Of a stretch of 64,000 nucleotides of DNA, positions 1 through 22,865 are shown in pieces. Origin of the DNA: Entophlyctis helioformis (taxonomy: Eukaryota > Chytridiomycota > Chytridiomycetes > Chytridiales > Chytriomycetaceae); assembly GCA_025526915.1 (NCBI GenBank), contig JAHLKH010000151.1:1-64000 (forward strand). Reading direction: 5' to 3'. A program made the translations under genes and the position numbers. The notes beneath the pieces were generated by a model. It saw nothing but the letters and a program-made list of their open reading frames with translations, had not been told where the DNA came from and did not search any database. Position 1 is the stretch's first letter. Each line of letters begins with the position of its first letter.

Positions 1-2840
1 TGCCGCCAAGGCTGCTGCTGCCAAGGACACCGCGCCAAGACCATCGGCGGCCAAGAGAGGGAGACAAACGAGTGTGGCGTCAAGCACTGAGGACGCCGCG
101 TCAAGCCCGACGAAACCCAAGAGAGCAAGGTGCAAGAGTGCAGCGCCAAACCCATCGTCGGCCGGTCTTGACACCACCCCTCCTGCAACAAGCCATGAGC
201 ACACCGCGTCAAGCTCATCGTCGGCCACTGACAAGAGCGGCGCGACCAAAAAGGCACGCGGCAAGAAGCCGGCCGCCAAGGACGCCGCAGGGAACAAGAG
301 CGCTGTCGTGACCCCGCCAGCATTGCACAAGCTTGTGGCCATCATACGCAACATGTCACTGTCGACTGTTGGACGCTTCAAGCAGCTGCGCGATCTCGCT
401 GGAAGAGAGACCATCAAGCTCTGTCCTCAAGCGGCAAGTCGTGATCCCTTTGTTCTTATCACCGAGACCGTCCTCTTCTGGGCGGTTATGGGGCTGAAAA
501 GGGATCGCATCAGCGAGGAGCAAGATCCTGTCTTGCGAGCATTGAGATCGGAGCTTCTTGCTGCCATAAGTCAGTCACACTGCCTGTCTATGCCATCTTT
601 TTATGATTTGATGCTAACAATCCACTCTTCTCAAAGAGCCTGGCTGGAAAGACTCGGAGCTTGCGTTGCCCAATGACAAGATCCAGAAGGCATTCAGTTC
701 AAGTGACGAGCTGTGCGTCATGGATCTCCTCCTCCCTGGACTCGCCTCCGATACACGGCGCTATCAAACGCCAGCACAGGCCAAGTTGCAGATTGACGCG
801 GCCAACACCGCGGCAGAGACGGCCCTCGCCGCACCCATTGACAAGGCCACAGCCATCGCAAAGAATGACCCCATGACTTTCGATCTGGATGACGAGCAGT
901 TGGTGGACATGATCAAGGCCGAGGTTGCTTTTCCTCAAGTGCTACCAACCAAGTCGGTCAGATTTGGCAGCATCAAGACCGACGGGAAGAGTGTCTTTCA
1001 AACTGTTCTGGAGTTTCGCACAAACCGTCCAAAGTCACCTCGCAGTATGTGGCGTGCTTGGATGCTGTGGTGCACGCATTGATTCTGACCACTGCCTTGC
1101 TCTGCAGGTCCCAACGCGGCGACTTCAGACGAGCAGTTCAGTCACATTGAGGATGCTGATGAATCTGATTCTGACGATGACTTGGATGATGACTTGGATG
1201 ATGACTTGGATGATGACTTGGATGATGGCTTGGATGGCGAATGTGAGTTGCTGTACCAATCCAGACGGGCACTTGTTGTCCACACCGACTGACATGCCAT
1301 CCACAGCCGCCAATCCAGCCGACCCGTCAGCCACCAAGCCAAAAGCACCCAATCCTGTAAGCCACTTGCATGCTAAACTCGCGCTTTGGTGCACATGCAT
1401 TGCACATTCCTCACTCATGCCATGGCATGACAGGGCAAGCGCAACTTTTACGCCTCGCAGCGACTGCCCGATGTTGCTGATGCCAACAAGCTGCTCGCCG
1501 ACAAGGGCTACCAGACTGTTCGCGTTGTCAGCTTTGATTGGGGCGAGCGGTACCTGTTTGGCGCGTCCAGCATGCTGGTCAATGTCAAGGAGGAGACATA
1601 CACGCTCGAGGCCAACTACGTGCTCGCCTCTGGCGTATTTCATGCTGAGCGTGACCTTCAGCGGTGGTATGCATGCAATGACTCTGCCACGCGCACTCTT
1701 GACCAGATCAACTCACAGTGCCTGCCTCTTGTGCCAGGCTCAAGGCTGCGGACGTCCACAAGGCCATTGCATTCAAGACAGCAAAGCATGCTGATCCAAA
1801 CGTCTTAGCAGGCGAGAGAGCCTTTTGGGATCTGCGCTGCCATGCGTACTGCACACCATTCCTGAATGCACGGGTACGTTTTCTCTGATTCTGGATGCCC
1901 ATTGACACGACCGCCAAGCTGCTTGATCGCCTGCTGATCACACTGAACGGCATGGCATGGCATGGCATTCCACAGAAGGTCAAGGCCAAGCGGTTCACCA
2001 AGCGCAGCAACAGCATGTCTGATCGCGGAAACGCTCTTGAGGGCATCATGAAGCTGGCAGGATCGACCACTGGCAAGCGCGCATCTCGTGCATCTCAAGG
2101 CCTCCCTGTCAGCAACCCTGAGAAGGACATTCCTGTTGTATGGGCATTTGGCATCGACTTTACAGGCCAAGGTGGCCGGCACGCTGTGTTTGAGAAGTTT
2201 CTCATCAGGCATCTGCGGTCGTCTGGATATGCCTATGTGCGTCTGATGTCACGCTGTCCATCCATCCATCCATCTGTGCACCAACTGACACACGATCATG
2301 CACTCACACACACAGATCTACCGCTGTAACGAGAACCTGACCAGCCAGATGTGCCTGCAGTGCAAGCAGAGGATCCCATACGAGAACCGCACCAACCTGC
2401 GACGCTACGAGTGCACAGACTGCGAGACCGTCTACCACCGCGACGTGCTTGGAGCCACCAACATCGGGATGGTTGCACTGGAGCATCTGCTCTTTGGACA
2501 ACGGCCGCTCTACTTGACGCACACGCCAGTCGATCCGCCTGTCGTCCAGCAGCCTCCAGCACCAGATCCGCCTGTCGTCCAGCAGCGTTCTAGACACGCC
2601 ATCAAGCGACGTCGAGAACCAGATCCGCCTGTTGACCAGCAGCCCCCAAGACGTGCCATCAAGCGACGTCGAGAACCAGATCCGCCTGTTGACCAGCAGC
2701 CTCCAACACCGGATCCGCCTGTCGACCAGCAGCGTCCAACACGCAGACAGCGTGCCAGCAAGTCAAGTGCCACTCCACATGCTCTGACTTCCAGCACCAC
2801 CACCAACACTTTGAATCAGGGCACCTCCCGATCGACCTAA
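1..2840 (+). CDS. Fanzor copy A (eukaryotic TnpB-like RNA-guided nuclease), 5' end outside window
   Basis: Spliced model: exons <2-569, 637-1044, 1108-1242, 1307-1356, 1434-1666, 1738-1873, 1976-2236, 2316-2840; every junction is GT-AG and codon phase is kept throughout. The last exon shows the TnpB/Fanzor signature: a four-cysteine zinc ribbon (TSQMC..C, then YEC..C) followed directly by HRDVLGATNIG, the RuvC-III aspartate. Exon 5 carries a RuvC-I-like motif, SFDWGERYLFG. Exon 7 holds VVWAFGIDFTGQGG, the expected RuvC-II area, and NENLTSQMC after the last intron may supply the displaced glutamate described for Fanzors (family knowledge). The N-terminal part is rich in Lys/Ala (nuclear-localisation-like), an acidic DDDLDD tract precedes RuvC-I, and the C-terminal tail is a proline/glutamine repeat with KRRREP blocks. 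The family cuts DNA guided by an RNA encoded at the element's right end. The gene looks intact inside the window. Confidence 0.85.
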
Positions 2841-3032
2841 CGGGTCACTTATCACATCATTATTCAAACAATGGTGCAAGGTAAGCCTCTGGTTGGATGT
2901 GCCTCGCCCGCCTGTCGTCGCATGCTCGTTGCTGACTCGAACCTTGCATCGTGTGATGTGCGGGCTTGCATTCGTCGCCTCTTGGGTCGAATTTAACTCC
3001 AAAACGCTTGGCAATTGTTTGAATGTCGGGCC
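2841..3032 (+). ncRNA. Candidate Fanzor guide-RNA (omega-RNA-like) region and right end of element A
   Basis: Sequence after the Fanzor stop codon is shared with the same place behind copy B (22580-22802) and the match stops abruptly at GTCGGGCC (3025-3032). Inside it, 2893-2965 matches 22663-22735 at 70 of 73 positions, better than several of the coding exons. Known Fanzor and TnpB guide RNAs come from this right-end position, so this is the natural candidate scaffold. That it is transcribed as a guide RNA is inference; no promoter or processing site was proven. Confidence 0.5.
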
Positions 3033-3341
3033 ATTTGCCGGCGGTTTGCCGGTATTCCCTCGCCCTATTGCCCACCCCTCGTGTACAATGCGGGAGCCCA
3101 CGAGAATCTGGCGCTGAGATGACGGCCAAAGGGTTTTGGCACACGCTGTCTGATGGAGCTCATCGAGGACACAGGCACAACAGCAACGCTCAATGTCAAA
3201 ACTCTTCAATCGTAAAGTAAAACTCATCGAAATATAAAACTCTAGATCATCCAGACCGAACCCCACTATTGTGCGACACGCGCACGTGGCAGATACTACT
3301 GGCGGCATGATCACTTGAAAACCGGCGTGCGACTGTGGCCT
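3033..3341. other. Intergenic flank between Fanzor A and the F-box gene
   Basis: I see no gene here. It has no similarity to the flank of Fanzor copy B. AT-rich runs near 3205-3245 may hold polyadenylation signals of the convergent F-box gene. Confidence 0.5.
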
Positions 3342-8457: not shown

Positions 8458-8510
8458 AAGAGGTAAAGTCGGGCCTGGTTCTCATACCATTACCCCTGGT
8501 GGAATATTCC

Positions 8511-8575
8511 TGATTGGTCAACTCCTGGTGGAATCGCTGTGATTGGTCATCCTGGTGGAATCGCTGTGATTGGTC
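8511..8575. promoter_or_regulatory. Three CCAAT boxes in a 27-bp tandem repeat
   Basis: ATTGG (CCAAT on the minus strand) occurs at 8513, 8542 and 8569. The last two lie in a direct repeat of 27 bp (unit CCTGGTGGAATCGCTGTGAT followed by TGGTC). The sites sit 55-110 bp upstream of the methyltransferase ATG on its strand, a usual place for CCAAT-binding factor sites. Function is inferred from motif and position only. Confidence 0.5.
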
Positions 8576-8612
8576 GATCTAGAGAGCCCTTGCTCGGTGC
8601 AGACACTGCGCG

Positions 8613-9633
8613 ATGCGAGCACAGCAACAACGCGCCATGCCAGATCCAGACGCTGCTGCACTTGCCGCCCAACTGCACACAAGCAACAACGAGCCAAACG
8701 ACGACGACGGCGACGACGCAGGCGACGGCACGGATATGGGACAACACTCGCTTGCTGGACGAGTCCTTCAGGGGAGATGGCGAGACGCACTGCTCAAGGT
8801 GGCATGCAGCAGGCCATGCAGCAGGCCATGCAGCAGAGCAGCATGGTCGTGGCCGTCTGAGAGGCGTGCCCAACAAGGCGGGCGGACAGAAGGCAGGCTG
8901 CAGACAGGCAAGCGGGTGCGTTGACTCGCTGTCTGTCCAGGCATGTGCATTGCCCATCGACGACGACGGCACAGCAGTCTGACGGCCGTGTCTGGTGGTC
9001 TTGGCACTGACTGCGTGCATGTCTGATGGCTCCAAACAGCAAGGGACGTTGGCAAGACGGCCGTGAGCAGGGCGAGCTGGTCGTTGTTCAAGAGGACAGC
9101 GAGAGCATTGGCATCGCAGGACCAAGCTGCCTGGTGCTTTCCGACTGCGACATGGGATGCAGCAGCAGCGATGAGCAGCCACTGAGACGTGCTCAATGGA
9201 TCGATCCTTGGAGTTGGCTGCAGGAACTGCTTGCTGGACAGCTGGATTGGCATGCTGACTTGGACGCCAAACTCGGCAGTGGCAGCACACTCGACGAGCA
9301 GCACACTCGACGACACTGATCCAGACGAGATTGGTGAGGAGGACGCGAGTGCTGGCAGGCGTGTCTGGCCACATTGCACTTGGTGCGATGGCATCTTGGA
9401 TGCGATCCACTGAGCAGCAACTGGAGTGGCCAGACAGACCAAGCACTCTCCATTCATTTAACAACCACAACGACGATGATGATGGCGATGGTCCTGACTA
9501 TCCAAGTCTTGCATGCACTGTGTTTGTTGACAAGGACGATCCAGAGCAGAGGGGCGATGCAGGCAGTGCGCCAACGGCCAACCTGTCCACGGACCATCCG
9601 GCCAGTCAGGCAACACCAACTGCATCGCACTGA
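8613..9633 (+). CDS. Possible spliced gene of unknown function (weak)
   Basis: An ATG at 8613 opens an acidic, low-complexity reading frame (NNEPNDDDGDDAGDGTD) up to a possible donor at 8799. Joining to an acceptor at 9043 keeps the frame into a segment containing WIDPWSWLQELLAGQLDW. A third open segment up to 9633 contains DDDDGDGPDYPSL. I do not recognise any domain, and the second acceptor lacks a good pyrimidine tract. The opposite strand also has open frames here. It may be a small divergent gene sharing the promoter of the methyltransferase, or no gene at all. Confidence 0.2.
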
Positions 9634-10921
9634 GTCACAATGCAGATGCATATCAGGGCGATCGATGGATGCAATGGGACATTGAGAAGATGCTACTCGG
9701 AGAGAGGCTTGTTGCAATACTAGAAGAGATCCTTGTGTCAGGACGTTCCAATACGGTTAGCGGTCATCACAGGCAATCTGGTGCGTTACAGCCAGAAGGC
9801 TGCTGGCAAACCATGGCTGCTTGGATCGGCCTGACCTTGAAAGACAACACTTCATTCCCATGACTGTGTCACCAGAAGTCGCAGAGTACCCCACCAAGTA
9901 GAGCAGGCCCAATGGATTCTTTCCCAACATGGATGCCTCTGGGCTATGCCACAGGCTTCCATGGTGATGACAATGATATCCAAGGGATGCAACTGGTGAA
10001 CAACAATCGAGTTGCTGTCATCCATTGAGATCGCAGACGGCCCTCAGAAGTGCATCCAATGCAGCCAAGTGTCTCACATCAGCACGATCATCAAGGGCTT
10101 TGACCCACAGCGACTGGAGAATGGCGGCAATGGTCCCTCTCTCAAAGGGAACCTCGGCAGCCATGTGGCATGGGTGGTGCCTCTCAAAGACATTCGCAAG
10201 CCTCTTGGAATGATCTCATGCCTCCAAGATCGCAGCAATACTGACTGTGTGATGCACTGCAAGGCAACAAGATCACTCTCTTGTTCAAAGACAGCATCTA
10301 CCAACTTGACTTGCATAGTGCAGAGTGCTGCAAGCAGCATGCCTGATCGCCCACAACGCACAATAAGCAGTGCAATCACCTCCAAGACGGGCTGCGTGCC
10401 AGCCTCAAAGTGGAGACGATCTGCATCAACAGCATCGCTGCTCAGAGTGGCATGGCATTCCAGCCAAGAAGAATGAAATTGAAATCAAACCAGGCGTCAA
10501 CCTGAACAAAAGTCAATGCGAGCCAGCCAGCCAGTCAGCGGCACGTGCACGGTCGTGGACGAGAACACACGCCTCGTGACAGATCCATGCCACGAGATCC
10601 ACAACAAACATGGCTGTACTGGTGGAAGAGGCGGCATTGTGGACCATGCACAGCCCATTGCATTGTTTGGCTGTTTGGTGGAAAATGAAAGCAAACTTGT
10701 GTTTGCTCTTTGCTTGCCCCAACTGTCTGCAACCGCACTGCCTGATCTGACTTTTGCTGAGGTTTGCGTCTGTTGAGAGAGAGATCTCGAGAGGCAAGTT
10801 ACAAACCCCACTGCCTGTGCACTCGGCGCATGATAAGAATCGCAGCTCACAGACTATCAACCCTCATCGCTCAGCTTCCAGCGACGCACGCCGGCACACC
10901 GCCGGCACGCAGGATCGCAAG
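9634..10921. other. Region without confident gene, left flank of the chromovirus
   Basis: Short open frames occur on both strands (for example 10012-10476 plus, 10074-10385 minus), but none shows a known motif or convincing codon structure. Base composition is more mixed than in the genes around it. I see no repeat shared with the rest of the window before the LTR starts at 10922. Confidence 0.5.
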
Positions 10922-11166
10922 TGTAACTGTCCTCGTCGAGAGCGGCTGGCCGTCTGGTGGCAGAGGGGCAGTGAGTATACAGGCTTACGGCTGGATACAA
11001 CTTCATTGAGACTCAGGCACAGACCTGGTGGCAGAGGGGCAGTGAGTATACAGGCTTACGGCTGGATACAACTACAACAACAGGGCCAAGTCAAGTCCGG
11101 GCGAGGCGCGTCCAGATCAATGCCAGCAGGTCACGTGACCACGGGACTGCGGCGGCATCCGTTACA
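10922..11166 (-). repeat. 3' LTR of the chromovirus
   Basis: 245 bp, begins TGTAACTG and ends CGTTACA on the plus strand. It contains an internal direct duplication of about 47 bp (GGTGGCAGAGGGGCAGTGAG... repeated). Identical to 18687-18931. Confidence 0.93.
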
Positions 11167-11447
11167 CTCCCCCCAGCATAGACAGCCACTCATAAGAACG
11201 AAGAGTGGATGAACAGCAACTAAGAGGATGCATGGGCGTTGCACACACGAGAGGAAGAAGTGCGGGCAACGATGGACGCATAGGACACAGGACGGGGAAC
11301 CGTGCGCTCAGAGCGACGAGGTGGGGCGGGATGGTTGAGAGGGGGAAGAGAAGAGAGAGAGAAGGAGGAGGAGAAGAGGGAGGAGGGAGAGGAGGGAAAG
11401 ATGGAGAGAGAGAGGGAGATGCGGGTGCAGCAGGTGCGATCGGCTCG

Positions 11448-14400
11448 TCAGCCAGAGCAGGTGCCGCGGGCGTGGCTGCTGCGGAGCAGGGCCACTGGTG
11501 CAGGAGCAGGCGCAGTGCGCTTGCGGCGAGAGGGCTTGGATGCCTTGGGCTGCGTGGGAGCAGGCGCCGCGGCGGGGGCAGGGGCAGCCGGTGCAGGAGC
11601 CGCGTGCGTGGGCTGAGCCGGTTTGGACGCCTTGCCCTTAGGCGCCTTGGTCGGCCGAGCATGGAACGCCTTGACGAGGTCCTGGGCCTTGCGCATGTCG
11701 GCAGCTGGGACCCATGTGTTGTCGTCGGCTGGATAACCAACCCACTTGACCAGATACTCGATCTTGCCGCGATAAGTGCGCGAGTCAACGATCCGCTCGA
11801 CCTCGTAGTTGTCTGACGTGCCGTCGTCGGCGTGGTACTCGGGGTCAGGCCGGGAGGGCACGTCCTTGCGGCCGGTAGGCGCAGACAGAGGGTCGACATA
11901 CGGGCAGATCCGGTCGGCATGGAACACGTTGTGGACGCGGTGCAGCGAGGCAGGCAGCGCAAGCGTGTAGTTGAGGCCAGATTCACCAGAGTCCAGGCTG
12001 GTGATGGCAAAGGGGCCGAGCCACTTGGCGGCCGTGAGCGGCGGGCGGTGCGAGTCCGCCGGCCAGGAGATGCCCTCAGCGTTGAGGAGCACCATGTCGC
12101 CGATCTTGTACGCAGGGTGACGGCGGCGACGCTTGTTTGCCTGAACGGCCATGGCTGCCTGGGCTTTGCGCCGATTCAAAATGGCCGAGTCGCGAGCAGC
12201 AGCCATGTCCAGCAGCAGGTCGCGGGCCGCGGCAGATGGTGCCAGGGCTGGCTCGGACGGGAAGGACCGCGGGTGGCGGCCAAACGCCAGGAAGAAGGGT
12301 GCAAAGCCAGACGACGCAGACGGCGCGCAGTTGAGGCCAAAGCAGGTGGGACCGAGCAGCAGCGGCCAGTCAGAGCCGTGGTAATCGGCCGCCTTGGCAA
12401 GCGCATCCTTGATGGTGCGGATGCTGCGTTCGGCCAAGCCGTCAGTCTGCTGGTGGCGAGCCGTGCTGAGGTTCTGCTTGATCTGGGCAGCAGTGCAGAG
12501 GCTCGACCAGAAGGCCGACAGCCAGCGGGCGTCGCGGTCCGAGACGATGTCGACCGGGAAGCCCTTGCCCGAGCAGACCCAGCGAGTCAGGAAGAGCTCG
12601 GCCAGCTCCTGGGCCGACGACGAGCGGCGGCACGGGAACGCGTCGCAGAGACCGGACAGGCGATCGACCACAACCAGAGCAGCATCAAACGCATCGTCTT
12701 GTCCGCCCGCGGGCAGGAACATGACGTCCATGGCGACGCTCGAGAAGCAGTCGTCCGGGATCGCGAGTGGATGCAGCAGGCCGTCAGGCCGGTGATTGGG
12801 CGTGCGGTGGCGCTGGCACACGTCGCATGAGGCGACGTAGGCGGCAATGTCCTCGGACATTCTGGGCCAGAAGTACCGGTTCGACAAGCGGCTGGTGGTC
12901 CGCTGACGTCCCTGGTGCGCACCGAAGGGAGAGTCGTGGTAGTGGGCAAGCAGATCCGCGCGCAGAGACTGCGGCACATACAAGCGGTTGCCTTTGTACC
13001 ACCACGCACCATCCAAGCACTCCATGTGCACTATGACCTTGCGGTCGGCCGGCGTGGCAGACGATGGGTCGGCCTTCCAGCCAGGCAGTCTGGAGGCGAA
13101 TGGGTCGGCCGGCAACGCCGCACGCACGTCTTTCACCCAGTCAGAGTCAGTGCACAGATTGGCAGCACGAATCGGGACAGGCGAGCGACAGTTTGTGCAG
13201 AGAGGGGCCTTTGAGGGATCGCGGGACAGCAGATCGGCCAGCGCGTTGAGCTCGCCAGGCACGTACTCGATGGATGTATCAAACTCCTGCAGAGACAGGA
13301 CCCATCGAGCCTGCCGATCCGACAGGTGGGGCTGCGTGGCCAACCAGACCAGCGCCTTGTGGTCAGTGTGCGTGACAGAGCGCACACTGGACAGCAGATG
13401 ACGGAAACGCGAGAAGAACTCCACGATGGCGAGCAACTCGCGCTCGTGGGTTGGATAGTTCATCTCGGCTGGGCTAAGCTTACGTGACCAGCAGGCCACC
13501 AGCTTCTCGCCATCTGGGTGGATCTGCGACAGGTAGCCGGCAATGACGTAGTTGCTGGCATCAGTGTAGACATGCGTTTCCAGAGCCGGGTCAAAGAACC
13601 GCAGCTCGGTCGCTTTCAGCACTGCCTGTCGCAGGTCTTCCACAGCCTGCTTTTGAGCAGGGCCCCACTCCCACTTGGCATTCTTGGCCAGTAGCTTGTA
13701 TAGTGGCAAGCACATGGTGGCGTACGCCTTTGCAGGGTTCGGCCAACCAATGAATGACTTTAGCCATACCAGCTTGCCCAGCCAAGTTGCCAGAGTGGTT
13801 GTGTTTGAGATGTGTGGCGCTGCGGCCATCTCCTGCAAGTGCTTTGGCGCAATGGAATAACCAGTGGGCGAGAGCACGTGACCGCAGAACTCAATGTCCT
13901 GCTGCAGGATCATGCACTTAGATGGCTTAATGTACAATTGAGCCTTCAGTAGCAGCTTGAGAACAGTGCGTAGGTGTTTGATATGCTCCTTGTACGTCGC
14001 GCTGTAGATGTAGATGTCATCCATGTACACCGAGACGCACGTGCCCAGCAGCTCATTGAGCGTCGACTGGATGGCTTGTGTAAACACAGCCGGAGCATTG
14101 GTCAGCCCAAAAGGCATGACCGTGAACTCAAAGTGACCAAACTGGGTGGAGAACGCAGTTTTCCACTGGTCCTCCGCCTTAACACGGATGTTAAGGAAGC
14201 CCTCGCGAATGTCAAGCATCGAGCGGAAGGGTTTGTTTGCCAAGTTATCACGGAGGGTCTCAATCTCCGGGATCGCACTGTGGAACTTCACCGAGATGTT
14301 GTTCAAGCCGCGGTAGTCAATGACCAACCGCAGCGAACCATCCTTCTTGCGGACAAAGAGCGTGCCGGCGCCCAAAGGCGATGACGAGCGGCGGATGTAA

Positions 14401-14827
14401 CCTTTGGTGTACCACTCGTCCAGCTGCTTCTTGAGCGCTACGGATGCATCCTGGTTCAGTTTCTTGAGGCCACGACGCGGCGGCAGCTGCGCATCCTTAA
14501 TGAAAGGGATCGCGATCTCGAACTCCGAGTCGTGCGCGCGGCCTTGCGGCGGGCAGCAGACCTCGTAGTAGTCGATGAATGCCTTCTGCGTCTCCTCGTC
14601 CGGGCAGACTGGAAGGTAGGGGTACTTCTCCTTCAGCTCGTCCGGGGTGAGGCCGTTTGCAGCCGCGACGCGAAGGCGCGCATCGGCAGCTGCCTCACGG
14701 TCCTCAGGCAGGTCATCCACATAGACCAGCTCCGCGTACTCGTCAGGATGGGCGAGGATGTCCGACATGGTAACCACGATGTCAGAGTGCGGCCGGTTGT
14801 GGGGTGCAGCAGACGGCGGAGCGTCTT
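11448..14827 (-). pseudogene. pol: pol part of chromovirus polyprotein (RT, RNase H, integrase, chromodomain)
   Basis: About 1125 residues open to the stop codon at 11448. Reverse transcriptase: LRLVIDYRGLN, MPFGLTNAPAVF and the catalytic YMDD. RNase H: VYTDASNYVIAGYLSQ and THERELLAIVEF. Integrase: an HHCC zinc-binding part ending CDVCQRHR, then DxDE-type core pieces (AMDVMFLPAGG, DIVSDRDARW, HQQTDGLAERSIRTIK). A C-terminal chromodomain (VERIVDSRTYRG, YLVKWVGYPADDNTW) is followed by an Ala/Pro-rich basic tail. It has lost its own start because the nested element separates it from gag-protease; apart from that insertion the frame is intact, so the disruption is recent. Translation today could only begin from LTR-derived sequence upstream. 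Confidence 0.9.
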
Positions 14828-15010
14828 TGTCAGAGTTCCTGCTCGAGTGCGGCGAAGGCACAGGGAACTGCGGGTTTGGCTGAGGCACAGACAAAAGGAA
14901 GAGGAGCTGTCAGGCGACAGTGTCTGTGGCAGGCAATTGAATAGAACAGCAAGGGAAAGGCAGAGACGCGAGACATAGAGTTGGAAAAGCCAACAGACGA
15001 TAATCTAACA
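14828..15010 (-). repeat. 3' LTR of nested element
   Basis: 183 bp, identical to 15998-16180; bounded on the left by duplication GTCTT and on the right by the polypurine tract. Confidence 0.9.
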
Positions 15011-15129
15011 CCCCCCCTAGCCGAGGAGGCCAAGAGGACCCAAGGCGGTAGAAGGAGAGAAAAATTTTAAGCCTCGTCATCCCCCGGATCATCCGTGGCG
15101 GGCCTCTAAAGCCTTGAGCATGGGTGGGC

Positions 15130-15665
15130 GGTGAAGAAGACGCAGTAGACTGAGCAGTGGTCGCTGGGCCGTGCAGGATGGGATCAGGGCGGTGGTGGGA
15201 CGTGTGATGGACTGGAGACGCGGCAGGCTGAGCAGTGGTCGCTGAGCCGTGCAGGATGCGATCAGGGCGGTGGTGGGATGTGGGATGGACGCGGCAGGCT
15301 GAGCAGTGGTCGCTGAGCCGTGCAGGATGCGATCAGGACGGAGGTGGGACATGAGATGGACGCGGCAGGCTGAGCAGTGGTTGCTGGGCCGTGCAGGATG
15401 CGATCAGGGCGGTGGTGGGATGTGAGATGGACTGGAGACGCGGCAGGCCGAGCAGTGGTCGCTGAGCCGTGCAGGGTGCGATCAGGGCGGTGGTGGGACG
15501 TGAGATGGACGCGGCAGGCTGAGCAGTGGTCGCTGGGCCGTGCAGGATGCGATCAGGGCGGTGGTGGGACATGAGATGGACGCGGCAGGCTGAGCAGTGG
15601 TTGCTGGGCCGTGCAGGATGCGATCAGGGCGGTGGTGGGACGTGAGATGGACGCGGCAGAAATCG
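15130..15665. repeat. Seven-copy minisatellite inside nested element
   Basis: Units of about 70-80 bp, each containing GAGCAGTGGTCGCTGGGCCG (variants of it) then CAGGATGCGATCAGGGCGG, start near 15150, 15229, 15300, 15370, 15450, 15519 and 15590. Some units have an extra ACTGGAG insertion. A two-copy repeat (GAAATCGACCAATCAGAG..) follows at 15659-15750. It is not a CRISPR array: the units are contiguous and no unique spacers exist. Confidence 0.9.
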
Positions 15666-15997
15666 ACCAATCAGAGGCAAGACGTCAAAGAAGAGGATCG
15701 GAGAAATCGACCAATCAGAGACGAGATGTCAAGAAAGAGGATCGGAGACGCGTTGCGGACGAAGGGCGAGATGTTTGGACTGAGACGACAAAGAGATGGA
15801 GTGGGCACCGAGCGCGCCGAGAAGGACGACGAGAACAGTGTAGGGACTGGAAAACCAGTAGGCGCCGCAAGCGACGAGGAGGACGTCACAAAGGACGTGG
15901 GGGCTGGGCGACCGGTCGGTGCCGCAAGCGACAAACAGGCCGGACGGCCGGTGGGTGCCGCGAGCGGCGAGGTAGTTGTTTTTTTAAAGGCTGTTCT

Positions 15998-16180
15998 TGT
16001 CAGAGTTCCTGCTCGAGTGCGGCGAAGGCACAGGGAACTGCGGGTTTGGCTGAGGCACAGACAAAAGGAAGAGGAGCTGTCAGGCGACAGTGTCTGTGGC
16101 AGGCAATTGAATAGAACAGCAAGGGAAAGGCAGAGACGCGAGACATAGAGTTGGAAAAGCCAACAGACGATAATCTAACA
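15998..16180 (-). repeat. 5' LTR of nested element
   Basis: 183 bp, identical to 14828-15010; its end supplies the stop codon TAG that truncates the gag-protease frame, followed by duplication GTCTT. Confidence 0.9.
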
Positions 16181-18619
16181 GTCTTCGTGCTGCCAGATGT
16201 GGTGCACATCAGGGCGCGACTCGGTTGAGAAGCGGAAAACACCGCGACGGAAGTTGAATGACGCCTCCGCGGTGGTGCGCAGCCATGGCATGCCCAGGAT
16301 GACATCATCCACACCGTCATAGACGAGGAACCGCACCTGGCTGACCGCAGCTGATCTGTCGGCCAGCGTGAGGTATACCTCTGAATCTAGCCTCTGCAAG
16401 TTGCCGTTGGCAAACTCGAGAGTCACCGCCTGCCGGGTGAACGGCCGGGCAGCGGCGAGCAGGCCATTGGCATCCAACCAATGGCGAGCCACTAGATTCG
16501 CGCTGCTGCCAGTGTCCACCAGGACGCTGGCGCTGCGATTGTCCAGGAACACCGGAAAGGTGCACCGGTGTGTGGTGATGGGCCTCACCGGGGCAAGGTG
16601 CCCCTCCTTTAGCCGCGATGGCGGCATCACAGGACAAACAGGGTGATCAGGGGCCGCGGAGGGCATCTTTTTATTCGCAACACCACCCAATGGGTCACTC
16701 TTCTTCATCTGCGTCACTGTACTGCGTCCCGTCGTCTGAGAACGACGAGATGGTTTCGAGCGACTGCGAGCCGGAGCCATTGCTGGTGCGCCGTCGTCAC
16801 GGGCAGGGACCGATGGAGATTCGGTGTCAGCATTGGGCTTACACGCGGCTGCAGGCTTAGCCGCCGAAGCGTGCTTAGCCGCAGGAGCAGGAGGAGCCAG
16901 AGGGGGCGAGCGAACGTACCCAGTTGCCTTGGCCTTTGCCGCGATGCGCCCAACCTTAGAGTGGTGCTGGCGCTGGCTAGGCGATCGGCCAGCATGGTCG
17001 GCTGTCGCAGCAGGCGAGGCAGCCTTACGCGTCTCAGACGCGCTGCTGCTGCCTGAAGGCGCGGGGGTGGCAGCTTTGGGCGACGAGGAACTCCAAGAAC
17101 GCGGCGACGCGGCAGCTGTCTTGCCAGAGCTGGGCTTTGACTGGGCCTCGAGGGCCTTGTGGGCATCTGCCAGAGCAGTGGCGGCGGCAGTCTCCAGGGC
17201 GTGCTCAGCTGCCTCTGAGTGATCCTCAAAGAACGCGTCGCGGAGGGCGGCATACGTCTTGAACTTCCCTGGGGGCAGATCCTTGATGCGGGCACGGAGG
17301 AATCTGAGCTTCTGGTCATCCGTGTATCCCGCGTCGCTGAACAGCGGTTCGGCCTCCAGAATCCAATCCTGCGGGGCGCGGCCATGGCACAGCGTCGGCT
17401 TGAACAGGCTCGCCAGCTTCCCTTCGGCTTGGTTGCGAATCCGCTCTGGGTTGCGGTGGAGCGACTGGAGGTCGGCGAGGAACTGAGGGAACGTGAACAG
17501 ATCATCGTCGGCAGAATGCGACTCGTGCCATGCGGTGACAAACTCGAGTGCGCAGCCAGAGAAATAAGGCAGCAGTAGCGAGAAGATGGCGCCTAATGGG
17601 ATCGCGTCGACGCCGGCAGTGGTGCAGGCTTCCTTGTATGCTCTGCCGACTGCAATGACAAATGGCTTGAGGTTCTTGTGAGTGGCGTTCCAGTCGACTG
17701 AGGGAGCCGGGCCTTTGGTCATCACGAATCCGCTGAATGGTACCTGCTTGGCACCCAAGCAGTCTGTGAAAACCTTGGCGAGGTTTGGTGCACGGGCGTC
17801 CGCGGCTGCTGGCAGGCGTGCGTCCACCGAGGACCCAATCGCGAGGGCCGAACGCGACGCCTGCAAGGCAGCCGTGGCAGCGACAGCCTTGTCCGCAGAC
17901 TGCTGGGCCAAGGCAACTTGCTTGCTAAGGGCGATCATCGATTCCACGGTCTTGGTGGCCTGCGTCTGCAAGTTTCGCACGGCTGCCGTGTTGGCTGACA
18001 CCGAGTTGAACAGAGCGGCCAGACGCTCCTCATTGGACGCGGCAGACGTGGTGAAAGAGTCCGCCTGCTGGACTAGCAGCTCGTGGGTGTCATGCAGACG
18101 GGTCTGCAGGTCCTCGATGGAGACCTGAACCGCAGACAGCGATGCGGCGTGGTCATCCAGTGTGATCCGGACGTCCTCGCTGGCCGAATCCTGCAGCTGG
18201 TGCACAGAAGCGGACGCGGCGCCAACAGAGTGGACGGGAAAAGCGAGCGAGCCGCCCGCGCCGCCCAACAGAGCACCTCCGCCGCCCCGAGGCGCGGCAG
18301 AGGAGTGGCGAAACGCGGGCGTGCTGGAGGCCACTGCAGAGGTTGCATTGCCCGATGGAGCACCCTGGCGGCCACGAGAGCCAGCCTGAGGGAGGCGGGA
18401 TGCAGACATGCCGCTGGCCATGGAGCCAAGCCCAGAATCACGCGTGCGGCTATCAGCCCAGATGGTAGAGTTACCCGTAAACCCATGCAGGAGGTGTGAC
18501 GGCTTGTCGGCAAACGAGGAGTCTGGCGAGGCGAATGAGGCGCTGTTGGCGTCCGGGTCGGCGTCGGCCGCAGCGCTGGCAGGGCCGGCGCCAGGGGTGG
18601 GCGTGCGAGACAGGCCCAT
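16175..18619 (-). pseudogene. gag: gag-protease part of chromovirus polyprotein
   Basis: 814 residues from a clear ATG at 18619 to a TAG contributed by the nested LTR. Order: Ala/Ser-rich N-terminus, a coiled-coil stretch (about residues 150-250, heptads around ISLSAVQ-like segments), a capsid-like region (LLPYFSGCALEFVTAWHESH), an Ala/Lys/Pro-rich linker and a retropepsin domain with active site LVDTGSSANLV and the second motif VILGMPWL. No CCHC zinc knuckle is visible, which is unusual for Gag but known in some Ty3 relatives. When the nested element and one copy of GTCTT are disregarded the frame runs on into pol, so the original product was a single Gag-Pol polyprotein. Confidence 0.88.
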
Positions 18620-18686
18620 AGGCGCACAAAAAAATTCGACGCCGCAGGTAACGGCGGCTGGCGGCGTCGGTGGCGTTGGTTGTTGT

Positions 18687-18931
18687 TGTAACTGTCCTCG
18701 TCGAGAGCGGCTGGCCGTCTGGTGGCAGAGGGGCAGTGAGTATACAGGCTTACGGCTGGATACAACTTCATTGAGACTCAGGCACAGACCTGGTGGCAGA
18801 GGGGCAGTGAGTATACAGGCTTACGGCTGGATACAACTACAACAACAGGGCCAAGTCAAGTCCGGGCGAGGCGCGTCCAGATCAATGCCAGCAGGTCACG
18901 TGACCACGGGACTGCGGCGGCATCCGTTACA
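18687..18931 (-). repeat. 5' LTR of the chromovirus
   Basis: 245 bp, identical to 10922-11166. It ends four bases before the first ATG of Fanzor copy B, so it may have replaced or separated that gene's promoter. Confidence 0.93.
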
Positions 18932-18934
18932 CAC

Positions 18935-21900
18935 ATGTACAAGTGGTTCGAAGGAGAGCAGGTCAGGCACTGTTTCTTGGACCTTGACTTCAAGGGCATC
19001 AACAATCTCGGCGACCATGCCAGCATCGACGGCCTCGGCGGCGTGACCAAGGCGCAGTTCTTGTCTGGACGATTTACCCTCAGAAAGGACGTCCTTGCAC
19101 ACCTCATGTACGGTTCAAGTTGTTACAATCAGGAGAGCATGGACCCTCGCTTTGGAGACCCGGTACAGCTGGCAACGGGCACGACGCTCGAGATCTGTCT
19201 GCACGAGAAGGTCGAGAAGCCCAAGACGGCCGAGGAGTCAAAGGACACTGAGGATGACGAGGACGCCGAAGAGTATGAGGACATTGAGGATGTCGAGGAC
19301 GCCGAAGAGTATGAGGACGTTGAGGATGTCAATGAGTATGAGGACGCCGAGGACATTGACGATGCTGAGGACGCCGATCAGCCCGACATTCACGAGCAGC
19401 CTGAGCAGCAAGCAGCAGCAGCAGGACCACCAGCAGTGCCGACAGCCAACCAGCTGCTCACGGCATTCATCAGCAGCACCTCTGGTGGCCAGACGTCCGT
19501 GACCTGCATGCTACGCCACTTGTCGTACATCTTTACTGGCAAGCAGATGGCTAAGCCAGATTTGAAGATGGAGACGACCAACGCGTGGATCGTCACGGCC
19601 ATGCAGCTGATGTTCCACCGCGAATGGACGCGGGGGATGGTGCACACCAACGCGGTCAAGGTGTATGAGACCAAGAAAGGCAAGCAGCAGGACGTCGCAA
19701 TCCCGAAGGACATGCAGCAGGACGTCGCGCAACAGCCGGCTCTACCATACCTCCTGGACGGCAGCTTCTGCCCGGACGCAGTGAATGACATCTTTAGCAA
19801 CCTCGCCAGAGAAGTGTGCACCATACTCGCACGGCACTACATTGGAAGTCAATTCGACCTGGCGGTTGATGCGGCCCTCCAGCTGGTACCCGGTGCATCT
19901 TACGCGCAGGCAGTAGCGTGGGTTAAGCACCTGAAACAGCAAGCCAAGGATGCCAAGGCTGCTGTTGCCAAGCGTGCTGCCACCGACAACACCGAGTCAG
20001 GACCATCGGCGGCCAAGAAAGTGAGGTGCGAGAGCGTTGCGCCAGCCCCATTGACGGCCGCTCAGGATGCCACCCCTTCTAAAGCAACTCACAAGAGAGA
20101 CCGGTCCAGCACTCCATCGGCCAATGAGGGTGCTGCGAACAAGAAGCCATGCCGCAAGAAGACTGCCAAGGACACCATGTCAAGCACGCCTTCAGACGCG
20201 GAGGGCAAGGTCACTGTCGAGCTACCGCCAGCGTTGGACGTGCTTGCTGCAATCATGCTCGATGAGTCGCTGTCGCAGATTGGAAGGTTCAACGCGCTGG
20301 TCAACCTTGGTGGACGAAGGAGCATCAAGCTGTGCCCACAGCCATCCAGCCGCGATCCATTCGTCCTTGTCACCGAGACCACGCTCTTTTGGTCGGTGAT
20401 GGGGACAAAGGATGAGCGCATGAATGGCAAGCAGGATCCAGCACTGAAAGGATTGCGAAAGCGTCTCCTGGCTGCGATCAGCAGTAGGTCGCACTTGTTT
20501 ATGCCATGCTTACATGATGAGATACTAACACTCCACTCTTCTCAAAGAGCCTGGCTCGCAAGCCTTGACACTCGAGTCATCCAACAAGCAGATCAAGCGC
20601 GCGTTCAGCTCAAGCCGCGAGCTGTGTGTCATGGACATCCTGCTTCCTGGACTCGCCTCGGACAAGCGACGGTATCAAACGCCGGCAGAGGCCCAAGCAG
20701 ATATGGACGCGGCCAATGCCAAGGCAAAAGAAGACGCCATAGCCAAGGCGACGCAAGGGACTGATTATCGGCGTATGACTCACGAGCAGCACGAGGAGCA
20801 TATCAGGCTGTGATCAAGGCTGTGCGTCCAGCGAGACCAACCAAGCGGACACGGCTGAGCAACGTCATGACAGATGGATACACCATCTGCCAGCTGGCTC
20901 TCGATTATCGCACAGACCGTCTAGAGTCGCCTCACAGTATGTGCCGTGCTTGAATGTTTTGGTGTACACATTGGTTCTGACCACTGCCTTGCTCTGCAGG
21001 TTCCAAACGAGCATCCAATAAGGCGTTTTCTGCCCAGCTTCAAAGCCTCATTGATGCGACTAACACTGGTGACTGCGAGCCTGATTACCTGAATGGCACA
21101 TGTGAGTTGCTGTGCCAATCCAGACGCACACTTGTTGTCCACACCGACTGACATGCCATCCACAGCCGCCGATCCAGCCGACCCATCAGCCGCCAAGCCA
21201 AAAGCGACCAATCCTGTAAGCCACTTGCATGCCAACCTCGCACTTTGGTGCACATGCATTGCACATTCCTCACTCATGCCATGTCATGACAGGCTCAGCG
21301 CAACTTTAATGCATCCCAGCGACTGCCCAATGTTGCTGATGCCAACAATCTGTTCACTAACCAAGGCTATGAGACTGTTCGTGTTGTCGGCATTGATTGG
21401 GGCAAGCGGTACCTGTATGGCGCGTCCAGCATGCTAGTCAATGTCGAGGACAAGACATACACGATGGAGTCCAACTACGTGCTCGCCTCTGGCATGGCAC
21501 GAGCCGAGCACAGCCTTCAGCGGTGGTATGCATGCAATGACTCTGCCACGTGCACTCTTGACCAGATCAACTCACAGTGCCTGCCTCTTGTGCCAGGCTC
21601 AACAATCGATATGCCAAGGCAGCCGACATCCAGGCGGCCATTGCATTCAAGACAGCAAAGCATGCCGATCCAAACGTCAAGCCTGGCGAGAGAGCCTTTT
21701 GGGATCTGCGCTGCCATGCGTACTGCATGCCATTCCTGAATGCACGGGTACGTTTTCTCTGTTTCTGAATGCCCATTGACATGGCCGCCATGCTGCTTGA
21801 TTGCCTGCTGATTGCACTGAACGGCATGGCATGGCATGACATTCCACAGAAGGTCAAGGCCAAGCGGTTCACCAAGCGCAGCAACAGCACGTCTGATCGC

Positions 21901-22579
21901 GGAAACGCTCTTGAGGGCATCATGAAGCTGGCAGGATCGACCACTGGCAAGCGCGCATCCGATGCATCTCAAGGCCTCCCTGTCGACCGAACAAAGTCGA
22001 CAGAGGACAACATTCCCGTTGTGTGGGCATTTGGCATCGACTTTACAGGTCAAGGTGGCCGGCACGCTGTGTTTGAGAAGTTCCTCATCAGGCATCTGTG
22101 GTCGTCTGGATATGCCTATGTGCGTCTGATGTCACGCTGTCCATCCATCCATCCATCTGTGCACCAACTGACACACGATCATGCACTCACACACACAGAT
22201 CTACCGCTGTAACGAGAACCTGACCAGCCAGATGTGCCCGCAGTGCAAGCAGAGGATCCCATACGAGAACCGCACCAACCTGCGACGCTACGAGTGCATA
22301 CCATGCAAGACCGTCTACCACCGCGACGTGCTTGGAGCCACCAACATCGGGATGGTCGCACAGGGGCATTTGCTTGATGGACAACGGCCGCTCTACTTGA
22401 CGCACACGCCCGCCGGTCAGCCTGTCATCCAGCAGCCTCCAGCACCGGATCAGCCTGTCGACCAGCGGCGTCCAAGACAGCCACAGCGTCCAAGACAGCC
22501 ACAGCATCCAAGACAGCCACAGCGTCCAAGACAGCCACAGCCTGCCCTCAAGTCACTTGACCTGCATCCCACACAGTGA
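18935..22579 (+). CDS. Fanzor copy B (eukaryotic TnpB-like RNA-guided nuclease) with one frameshift
   Basis: Exons 18935-20483, 20548-20936, 21000-21101, 21166-21215, 21293-21525, 21597-21747, 21850-22119 and 22199-22579, about 1040 residues. The shared introns sit at the same places and phases as in copy A. RuvC-I is VVGIDWGKRYLYG, RuvC-II region VVWAFGIDFTGQGG, zinc ribbon TSQMCPQC...YECIPC, RuvC-III HRDVLGATNIG. The N-terminal 500 residues, seen only here, include a long Glu/Asp tract (DDEDAEEYEDIEDVED) and Lys-rich nuclear-localisation-like segments. In exon 2 the frame changes between 20765 and 20810 relative to copy A and to the downstream exons, which needs a one-base change; this is either inactivation or an assembly error. 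The 5' end abuts a chromovirus LTR, so the true N-terminus and promoter may be lost. Confidence 0.82.
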
Positions 22580-22802
22580 CTTGTTTGACTTCCAGCACAA
22601 TATGAATCGGGGCACCTCCCGATCGACCAATAGGGTCACTTCAATAGAAGGTGAGCATCTCGTTGGATGTGCCTCGCCCGCCTGTCGTCGCATGCTCATT
22701 GCTGACTCGAACCTTCCATCGTGTGATATGCGGGCATCTATTCGTCGCCTCTTTCGACGAATTTAATTCCAAAATTCTTGGTAATTGTATGAATATCGGG
22801 CC
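22580..22802 (+). ncRNA. Candidate Fanzor guide-RNA region and right end of element B
   Basis: Matches the region behind copy A up to ATCGGGCC (22795-22802), after which the flanks are unrelated. The core 22663-22735 differs at only three positions from 2893-2965. A perfect 7-bp hairpin (TTCGTCG / CGACGAA, loop CCTCTTT) lies at 22741-22761; copy A keeps only a shorter stem there. The next gene starts 63 bp beyond the boundary. Guide-RNA function is inferred from position and conservation. Confidence 0.5.
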
Positions 22803-22865
22803 TAAAGTCGGTGCGTCTATTTCCAACTCGTCGACATTGATCGCGCCAGTCACGACGTCGTCAAC

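Follow-up and report, generated by a model that had tools for sequence, protein, structure and literature searches.

The conserved non-coding DNA downstream of two TnpB/Fanzor-like genes of Entophlyctis helioformis belongs to two multicopy DNA-transposon families, A and B, whose right end it forms, and this right end probably serves as an open-ended spliceosomal intron, with a splice donor inside the element and an acceptor supplied by the target site or the flank, so that transcripts would be spliced into downstream host DNA. This reading, drawn from sequence patterns, is favoured because it explains the avoidance of AG in the right end, the donor motif and the asymmetry of the host flanks. 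One copy of each family lies in the window, the whole 64,000-nt stretch of DNA that was analysed, within a genome assembly of 29.57 Mb in 482 contigs. The main features of the two copies are as follows.

1–3080 (+): copy A, 3' part only; the contig starts inside the element
2316–2840 (+): last coding exon of the TnpB-like gene of copy A, with TNB zinc ribbon; stop codon at 2838–2840
2893–2965 (+): right-end core of highest conservation, common to 22663–22735; A–B identity of 0.94–0.97 in alignment columns 28–72
3033–3080 (+): A-specific right terminus of 48 nt, not a guide; pyrimidine-rich end (0.75 over the last 30 nt, 30 copies)
8464–8471 (+): left target-site duplication (TSD) of copy B, TAAAGTCG
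8472–22802 (+): copy B, rearranged, with an LTR element inside and one apparent frameshift; the N-terminal exons of full-length A were not found in it
8472–8494 (+): left terminal inverted repeat (TIR) of copy B, GGCCTGGTTCTCATACCATTACC; pairing with the right end judged by eye
22199–22579 (+): last coding exon of copy B; stop codon at 22577–22579, frame followed across exons
22780–22802 (+): right TIR of copy B, ending ATCGGGCC
22803–22810 (+): right TSD of copy B, TAAAGTCG; provides the AG proposed as acceptor

The original prediction held that non-coding DNA is conserved downstream of both stop codons, and this conservation is real: 70 of 73 bases are identical between the cores at 2893–2965 and 22663–22735, and 137 of 155 between 2878–3032 and 22648–22802, with A–B identity of 0.66–0.91 outside columns 28–72 of the right-end alignment and a mean column identity of 85% among the aligned copies. 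It lies far above chance, because a 29-nt piece of the core has 154 matches in the genome at up to 2 mismatches and its reversed control has none. A protein-coding exon, which the prediction had named as the competing cause of the conservation, is ruled out by 1-nt indels between copies. Past the border (3033 and 22803 onward), only 19 of 80 positions are identical between A and B, which is about the chance level.

That border had been taken as sharp and common to both copies, and this is correct for B, where 22802 is the exact terminus, marked by the TIR and the 8-bp TSD; position 3032 is not the terminus of A, because 3033–3080 is common to the A copies. Positions 3032 and 22802 are thus the point at which the two families diverge, and a true terminus for B only. 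When 2700–3100 was compared with the genome, 33 of the 39 other matches in the best 40 places ended at query positions 380–384, corresponding to window 3079–3083, and 27 of 30 A-type right ends carry 46–48 extra nucleotides (window 3033–3080), the extension being altered in three of the 30 (L012, L019, and L023). A 30-nt piece of 3033–3080 has 53 genome matches, against none for its control. The proposal that the guide of copy A begins at 3033 is therefore wrong, since 3033–3080 is constant in the A family. Whether the extension might act as an unchanging guide directed at other places in the genome was also considered, and this was rejected, as many of the 53 matches coincide by coordinates with known A right ends. 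Most A copies contain a possible 6-bp hairpin in the extension (GCCGGC-GGTTT-GCCGGC, with GCCGGT in the window copy), and at the right end of L009 the final 19 nt of the A terminus are tandemly duplicated.

Family B is a TIR DNA transposon with a fixed 8-bp TSD, and its sharp border is a transposon end, because TIRs are accompanied by matching 8-bp duplications. Both ends were available for 12 B elements, and in nine of them a copy of the right 8-mer, identical at 7 or more of its 8 positions, stands next to the left terminus; contigs C67 and C297 represent one duplicated site, which leaves 8-bp TSDs at 8 of 11 independent sites, and the right 8-mers at C198, C60, and C49 have no match beside the left terminus. 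Two elements that combine a B-type left end with an A-type right end (C140 and C348) were left out of the count. For family A, no clear TSD was found at C95, C103, or L039, and a plausible one occurs at L047 (8 of 9 positions, judged by eye). Two full-length A copies, on contigs C95 and C103, were examined, each of about 9.66 kb. A LINE-like 5' truncation, suspected from the end points of blast matches, was rejected, both ends being present in full-length as well as internally deleted or inserted copies. No transposase family was found when pieces of the A copy on C95 were searched against Pfam; below the cut-off lay a transposase-associated cysteine cluster (E 0.12) and XPG_I_2 (E 0.091).

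Several observations concern the interior and history of the elements. Copy B contains a pair of LTR-like direct repeats of 246 nt (10922–11167 and 18687–18932) that are 100% identical, lie 7765 nt apart, and have TG...CA ends without matching 5-nt flanks; A locus L036 holds a related stretch. The LTR-flanked stretch includes tandem arrays at 15123–15745, with units of about 71–78 nt and of 44 nt. The left ends of B elements (window 8500–8580; L073–L092) carry units like CCTGGTGGAATCGCTGTGATTGGTC with ATTGG (inverted CCAAT), in numbers that vary by element, which are possibly the promoter of the transposon gene. Loci L037 and L050 are chimeric, with an A-like right end and 3' part, a diverged remainder, and B-like sequence at the left. 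These chimeras, together with L069 and 15 alignment columns in which the same two bases segregate in both families, point to exchange between A and B.

The prediction that a TnpB/Fanzor-type gene precedes the conserved stretch is borne out, the stretch being the right end of the transposon that carries the gene. The last exon matches the TNB zinc ribbon domain (PF07282, E 4.2e-10, 40.1 bits against a cut-off of 26.3), and NCBIfam TnpB models give weak hits there, with scores far short of their cut-offs. Matches to this exon in the genome (29.6 Mb) number 150, all those scored of 253 candidates. The zinc ribbon has the pattern CxxC-x16-CxxC-x6-D, with an Asp after the second CxxC, and a displaced glutamate (Ealt) resides six residues before the first CxxC, within ENLTSQM-C in both window copies; by analogy, this glutamate may be catalytic. 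The RuvC-I motif is DWG, not DPG, in all 44 pattern matches obtained from loci L001–L050 (overlapping loci counted), and published Fanzor patterns with a spacing of 120–160 were unmatched, the spacing here being 178 and 186. Fanzors have been defined by DPG together with the displaced glutamate, and a second displaced-glutamate clade has D-hydrophobic-G (PMC10711439). By the DPG and displaced-glutamate test, its motifs make the protein an atypical displaced-glutamate member of the TnpB family and not a standard Fanzor.

Protein database searches, whose reach is limited to relatives sharing 5-residue words, returned hits from E. helioformis only (4 of 4 and 10 of 10). In the PDB, one sequence had no match at E ≤1, and the best match of a profile had E 0.27. 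An AlphaFold2 model of protein P0001, used to look at the RuvC part, was of low confidence (mean pLDDT 42.7, pTM 0.28). In the N-terminal half of the gene in the full-length A copy on C95 (L071 plus L033), exon pieces with HEADVCIAR...VICNDSDLVAH resemble an XPG/FEN1-type nuclease; the presence of such a nuclease was rejected, the Pfam match being weak (the E 0.091 given above) and no relevant PDB match appearing up to E 10.

The gene has several exons. The spliced frame of window copy B is continuous after the apparent frameshift near 20810, and a deposited gene model from the same contig (P0009) agrees with the inferred splicing at three introns; the following intron is left unspliced in it and is removed in models P0002 and P0005, as in the inferred frame. 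The seven introns of the B gene are 63–102 nt long and begin with GTRNGY; four of the seven contain CTRAC, 14–27 nt before their AG, CTGAT occurs as well at 38 and 69, two of the seven have no CTRAY, and only four AG dinucleotides in total precede their ends. The right ends of both window copies hold the following splice-like signals.

2878–2885 (+): donor-like motif AAG/GTAAG of copy A; GT at 2881–2882, 40 nt past the stop codon
2885–3094 (+): AG-free run of copy A, 210 nt, from the donor through the element end into host DNA; next AG at 3095–3096
2932–2936 (+): invariant, branch-point-like CTGAC of copy A
22648–22655 (+): donor-like motif AAG/GTGAG of copy B; GT at 22651–22652
22655–22805 (+): AG-free run of copy B, 151 nt, stopping at the AG in the target-site duplication
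22702–22706 (+): CTGAC of copy B

The donor-like motif AGGTRAG is present behind the stop codon in 49 of 51 copies, as an island whose surroundings are variable in both length and sequence, and GCTGAC, which includes the branch-point-like CTGAC, is present in 51 of 51. The dinucleotide AG, which would end an intron, is nearly absent: it occurs twice in 51 copies of 140 nt, where about 289 occurrences are expected from base composition, and one of the two (L020) arises from a deletion that moves the donor into the counted stretch. The next lowest dinucleotide is TA, at 0.43 of expectation. Among 102 distinct substitution variants in 50 aligned copies (49 distinct), only one creates an AG, against 13.6 expected (P = 7.6e-6), so the shortage reflects selection rather than ancestry; in this test the other 15 dinucleotides show no deficit at the 0.05 level (TA 0.085). 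Over 20 long A loci, no AG occurs within 100 nt upstream of the A/B border, where 91 would be expected. Both full-length copies have their longest AG-free run at the right end (195 and 202 nt), and by our reading some of their other long AG-free runs overlap introns by position. The weight of this evidence rests on the many copies, because an AG-free run taken singly is not unusual: stretches of 110 nt or more without AG number 11 on the + strand of the window (the longest 210) and 29 on the − strand (the longest 256). AG is likewise scarce, without being absent, at the left ends (18 against 60 expected, in 19 of 20 fragments). A donor at the left end, which would make the whole element one intron, was sought by eye only and was unconvincing.

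The host DNA beyond the elements begins with an asymmetry that matches these signals. Right flanks identical in their first 15 nt were counted once, giving 46 flanks (28 A, 18 B; L030 was assigned to type A, and L060 was left out as its flank repeats that of L064 shifted by one base); a set of 50 adds L093, L094, L095, and L097, with L096 omitted as a duplicate of L095. Within the first 8 nt of the 50 flanks, AG occurs in 39 and its complement CT in 8; AG alone is found in 33 and CT alone in 2 (p = 3.7e-8; A 18:2, B 15:0), whereas 40–240 nt from the right end the two are equally frequent (581 and 580). In the set of 46, an AG lies at most 8 nt into the flank in 35 (A 20 of 28, B 15 of 18), against a control rate of 0.366 (p = 5.5e-8), and 42 have their first AG ahead of the first ATG, against 101 of 137 controls (p = 0.013). 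The base before this first AG is C in 17, A in 19, G in 6, and T in 4 of the 46, so that CAG is not enriched (C 17/46 against 0.57 in the control). The asymmetry reflects either orientation-dependent survival of insertions or an asymmetric integrase with an orientation-dependent target preference. In family B one of the two is needed, because a duplicated 8-nt target could take the element either way round, and survival is favoured, because the same AG bias is seen in family A, whose termini differ.

The genes beside the insertions show a weak tendency to point in the direction of the element. A codon-usage model, for which 13 long ORFs of the window served as training set, called coding sequence in the direction of the element in 27 of the 46 flanks and in the opposite direction in 12, with 7 ambiguous (p = 0.024; A alone p = 0.052, B alone p = 0.39). 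In the window, the gene behind copy A runs against the element (L001) and that behind copy B runs with it (L051, the same flank). The longest sense and antisense ORFs of 20 flanks out of 28 were searched against Pfam, and host domains were found in sense in 6 and in antisense in 2; one more sense flank, L005, gave zf-RVT, a domain of mobile elements. At L018, an aminotransferase class V gene has its ATG at +14 past the element end, and at L010 a GDSL lipase gene has its ATG at +21. The lengths of ORFs from the first ATG did not separate right flanks from controls.

The shortage of AG, the donor motif and the flanks that bear AG suggest splicing, a possibility absent from the original prediction. 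Taken as a terminal intron, the right end would act in the following manner. Transcripts leaving the element would be spliced from 2880 or 22650 to the first AG of the TSD or flank, and, one step further, the message of the element would be joined to the 5' part of a downstream host gene in the same direction. Such joining could give the element a host 3' end, or allow the host gene to be expressed from a leader exon borne by the element, or both, and insertions before genes would thereby become tolerable. Some findings count against this scheme: a terminal intron alone does not account for the 70/73 identity of the core, the donor is lost in 2 of 51 copies, CAG is not enriched at the proposed acceptor, and the left ends are poor in AG too. 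CTGAC is separated from the first AG by about 102 nt in B and about 160 nt in A, which is unusually long beside the 14–27 nt of CTRAC in the introns of the gene. A guide RNA or another sequence-specific element in the core is possible, because the core is over-conserved for an intron and this distance is long. The confidence given to the alternatives below overlaps with that given to splicing, as splicing and guide RNA are not mutually exclusive.

Guide RNAs of Fanzor-type nucleases are made from the transposon right end, and in Fanzor1 guide RNAs the TSD is predicted to be part of the scaffold, with the RNA extending about 15 nt beyond (PMC10711439). The right end might likewise be transcribed as an omega/reRNA scaffold, with host DNA past 22810 (B) or 3080 (A) as the guide, a reading that is compatible with splicing and that we consider possible though doubtful. 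The TNB domain with its Fanzor-type displaced glutamate, a right-end position as in known systems, and core conservation beyond the needs of an intron speak for it. Its proposed start in copy B, at 22803, fares poorly, since 22803–22810 is the 8-bp TSD, which corresponds to predicted scaffold in Fanzor1 guide RNAs. The covariance modelling with more copies suggested as a check brought no support: RNAalifold on the 50 aligned copies gave 26 consensus pairs, of which one shows a double change, with a covariation term of 0.15. Single sequences fold with no extra stability over shuffles (z −0.52 and −1.20), 496 of 500 shuffles outscore the clearest hairpin of copy B (TTCGTCG/CGACGAA) in pairing and covariation, and Rfam has no matches in window 1–24000. 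The copies are so alike that the covariation test has limited power, so these tests give a folded scaffold no support rather than a disproof, the mean column identity being that stated above. A scaffold does not predict the loss of AG or the AG-bearing flanks, and the A terminus lies 48 nt farther from the core than the B terminus. Should the terminal-intron reading hold, conservation of the right end downstream of a Fanzor-like gene would not suffice to indicate a guide RNA.

The two functions may also coexist, with a guide RNA lying within the terminal intron and splicing competing or cooperating with guide production, somewhat as in bacterial IStrons; this is unlikely, although splicing signals and a strongly conserved core do occur in one stretch. 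If the acceptor lay among the first 8 nt of flanking DNA, little or no guide sequence would be left in the spliced intron, and unspliced transcripts would be needed. The specific form of this arrangement, in which the acceptor comes from the TSD, splicing fuses the element message to a host gene, and the unspliced transcript yields the guide, is judged quite improbable. If true, what survives among insertions would be set by the need for an AG.

It is very unlikely that the right end is a transposon end only, its conservation stemming from transposase binding sites and from recent spread with gene conversion. The TIR and 8-bp duplications of family B (8 of 11 independent sites) and the 15 shared polymorphic columns, a sign of exchange, are in keeping with this. 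Against it, the left ends of window copy B and of C95 lack a convincing inverted core (best E 0.083, 11 nt), on which account symmetric subterminal repeats were rejected, and AG-specific selection and the donor motif are left unexplained. A role as promoter of the downstream host gene is the least probable reading: several insertions do lie shortly upstream of host start codons, and ATCACGTGAT, found in some right-end copies, and GCTGAC, found in all, may resemble fungal transcription-factor sites, but AG avoidance is unexplained.

With the terminal intron as the preferred reading, the E. helioformis elements can be compared with several known systems. In maize, splice donors in the ends of the Ds transposon are joined to acceptors beside the insertion; Ds is a hAT transposon and, unlike the E. 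helioformis element, has no TnpB-like gene. Fanzor transposons (Bao and Jurka 2013, PMC3627910; Saito 2023, PMC10432273; Yoon 2023, PMC10711439) resemble it in carrying a TnpB-family gene in a eukaryotic DNA transposon, with a displaced glutamate before the zinc finger and a right end downstream of the gene, and differ in that the E. helioformis element has DWG in place of DPG, a multi-exon gene, splicing signals in its right end, and no sequence relatives found outside the species. The word "intron" is absent from the main text of these three papers, and no splicing at Fanzor right ends was found in the literature searched, which lay mostly outside subscription papers.

Introners (Gozashti et al. 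2022, PMC9860276) likewise have a donor in the mobile element, an acceptor from duplicated or neighbouring host DNA, and TSDs, the splicing in E. helioformis being predicted; the motifs and selection described here would fit an element that brings one splice site and takes the other from the insertion site. Introners are short (family medians of 30–654 nt) and the whole element is the intron, in contrast to the E. helioformis element, which is about 9–10 kb long (about 9.66 kb in the two full-length A copies), encodes a TnpB-like nuclease, and would have only its right end removed. IStrons (Tourasse 2014, PMC4227781) would share with it the combination of a DNA transposon and splicing that makes insertions harmless, but there a bacterial group I ribozyme removes the element, whereas here the spliceosome would remove the right end only.

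If the terminal-intron reading is true, the element ends in a splice donor and persists where an acceptor is at hand, which shows how a very abundant TnpB-like family can live directly before host genes and joins introner-type intron gain with RNA-guided transposon nucleases; a transposon with its guide inside such an intron would, in turn, be the spliceosomal counterpart of the IStron.
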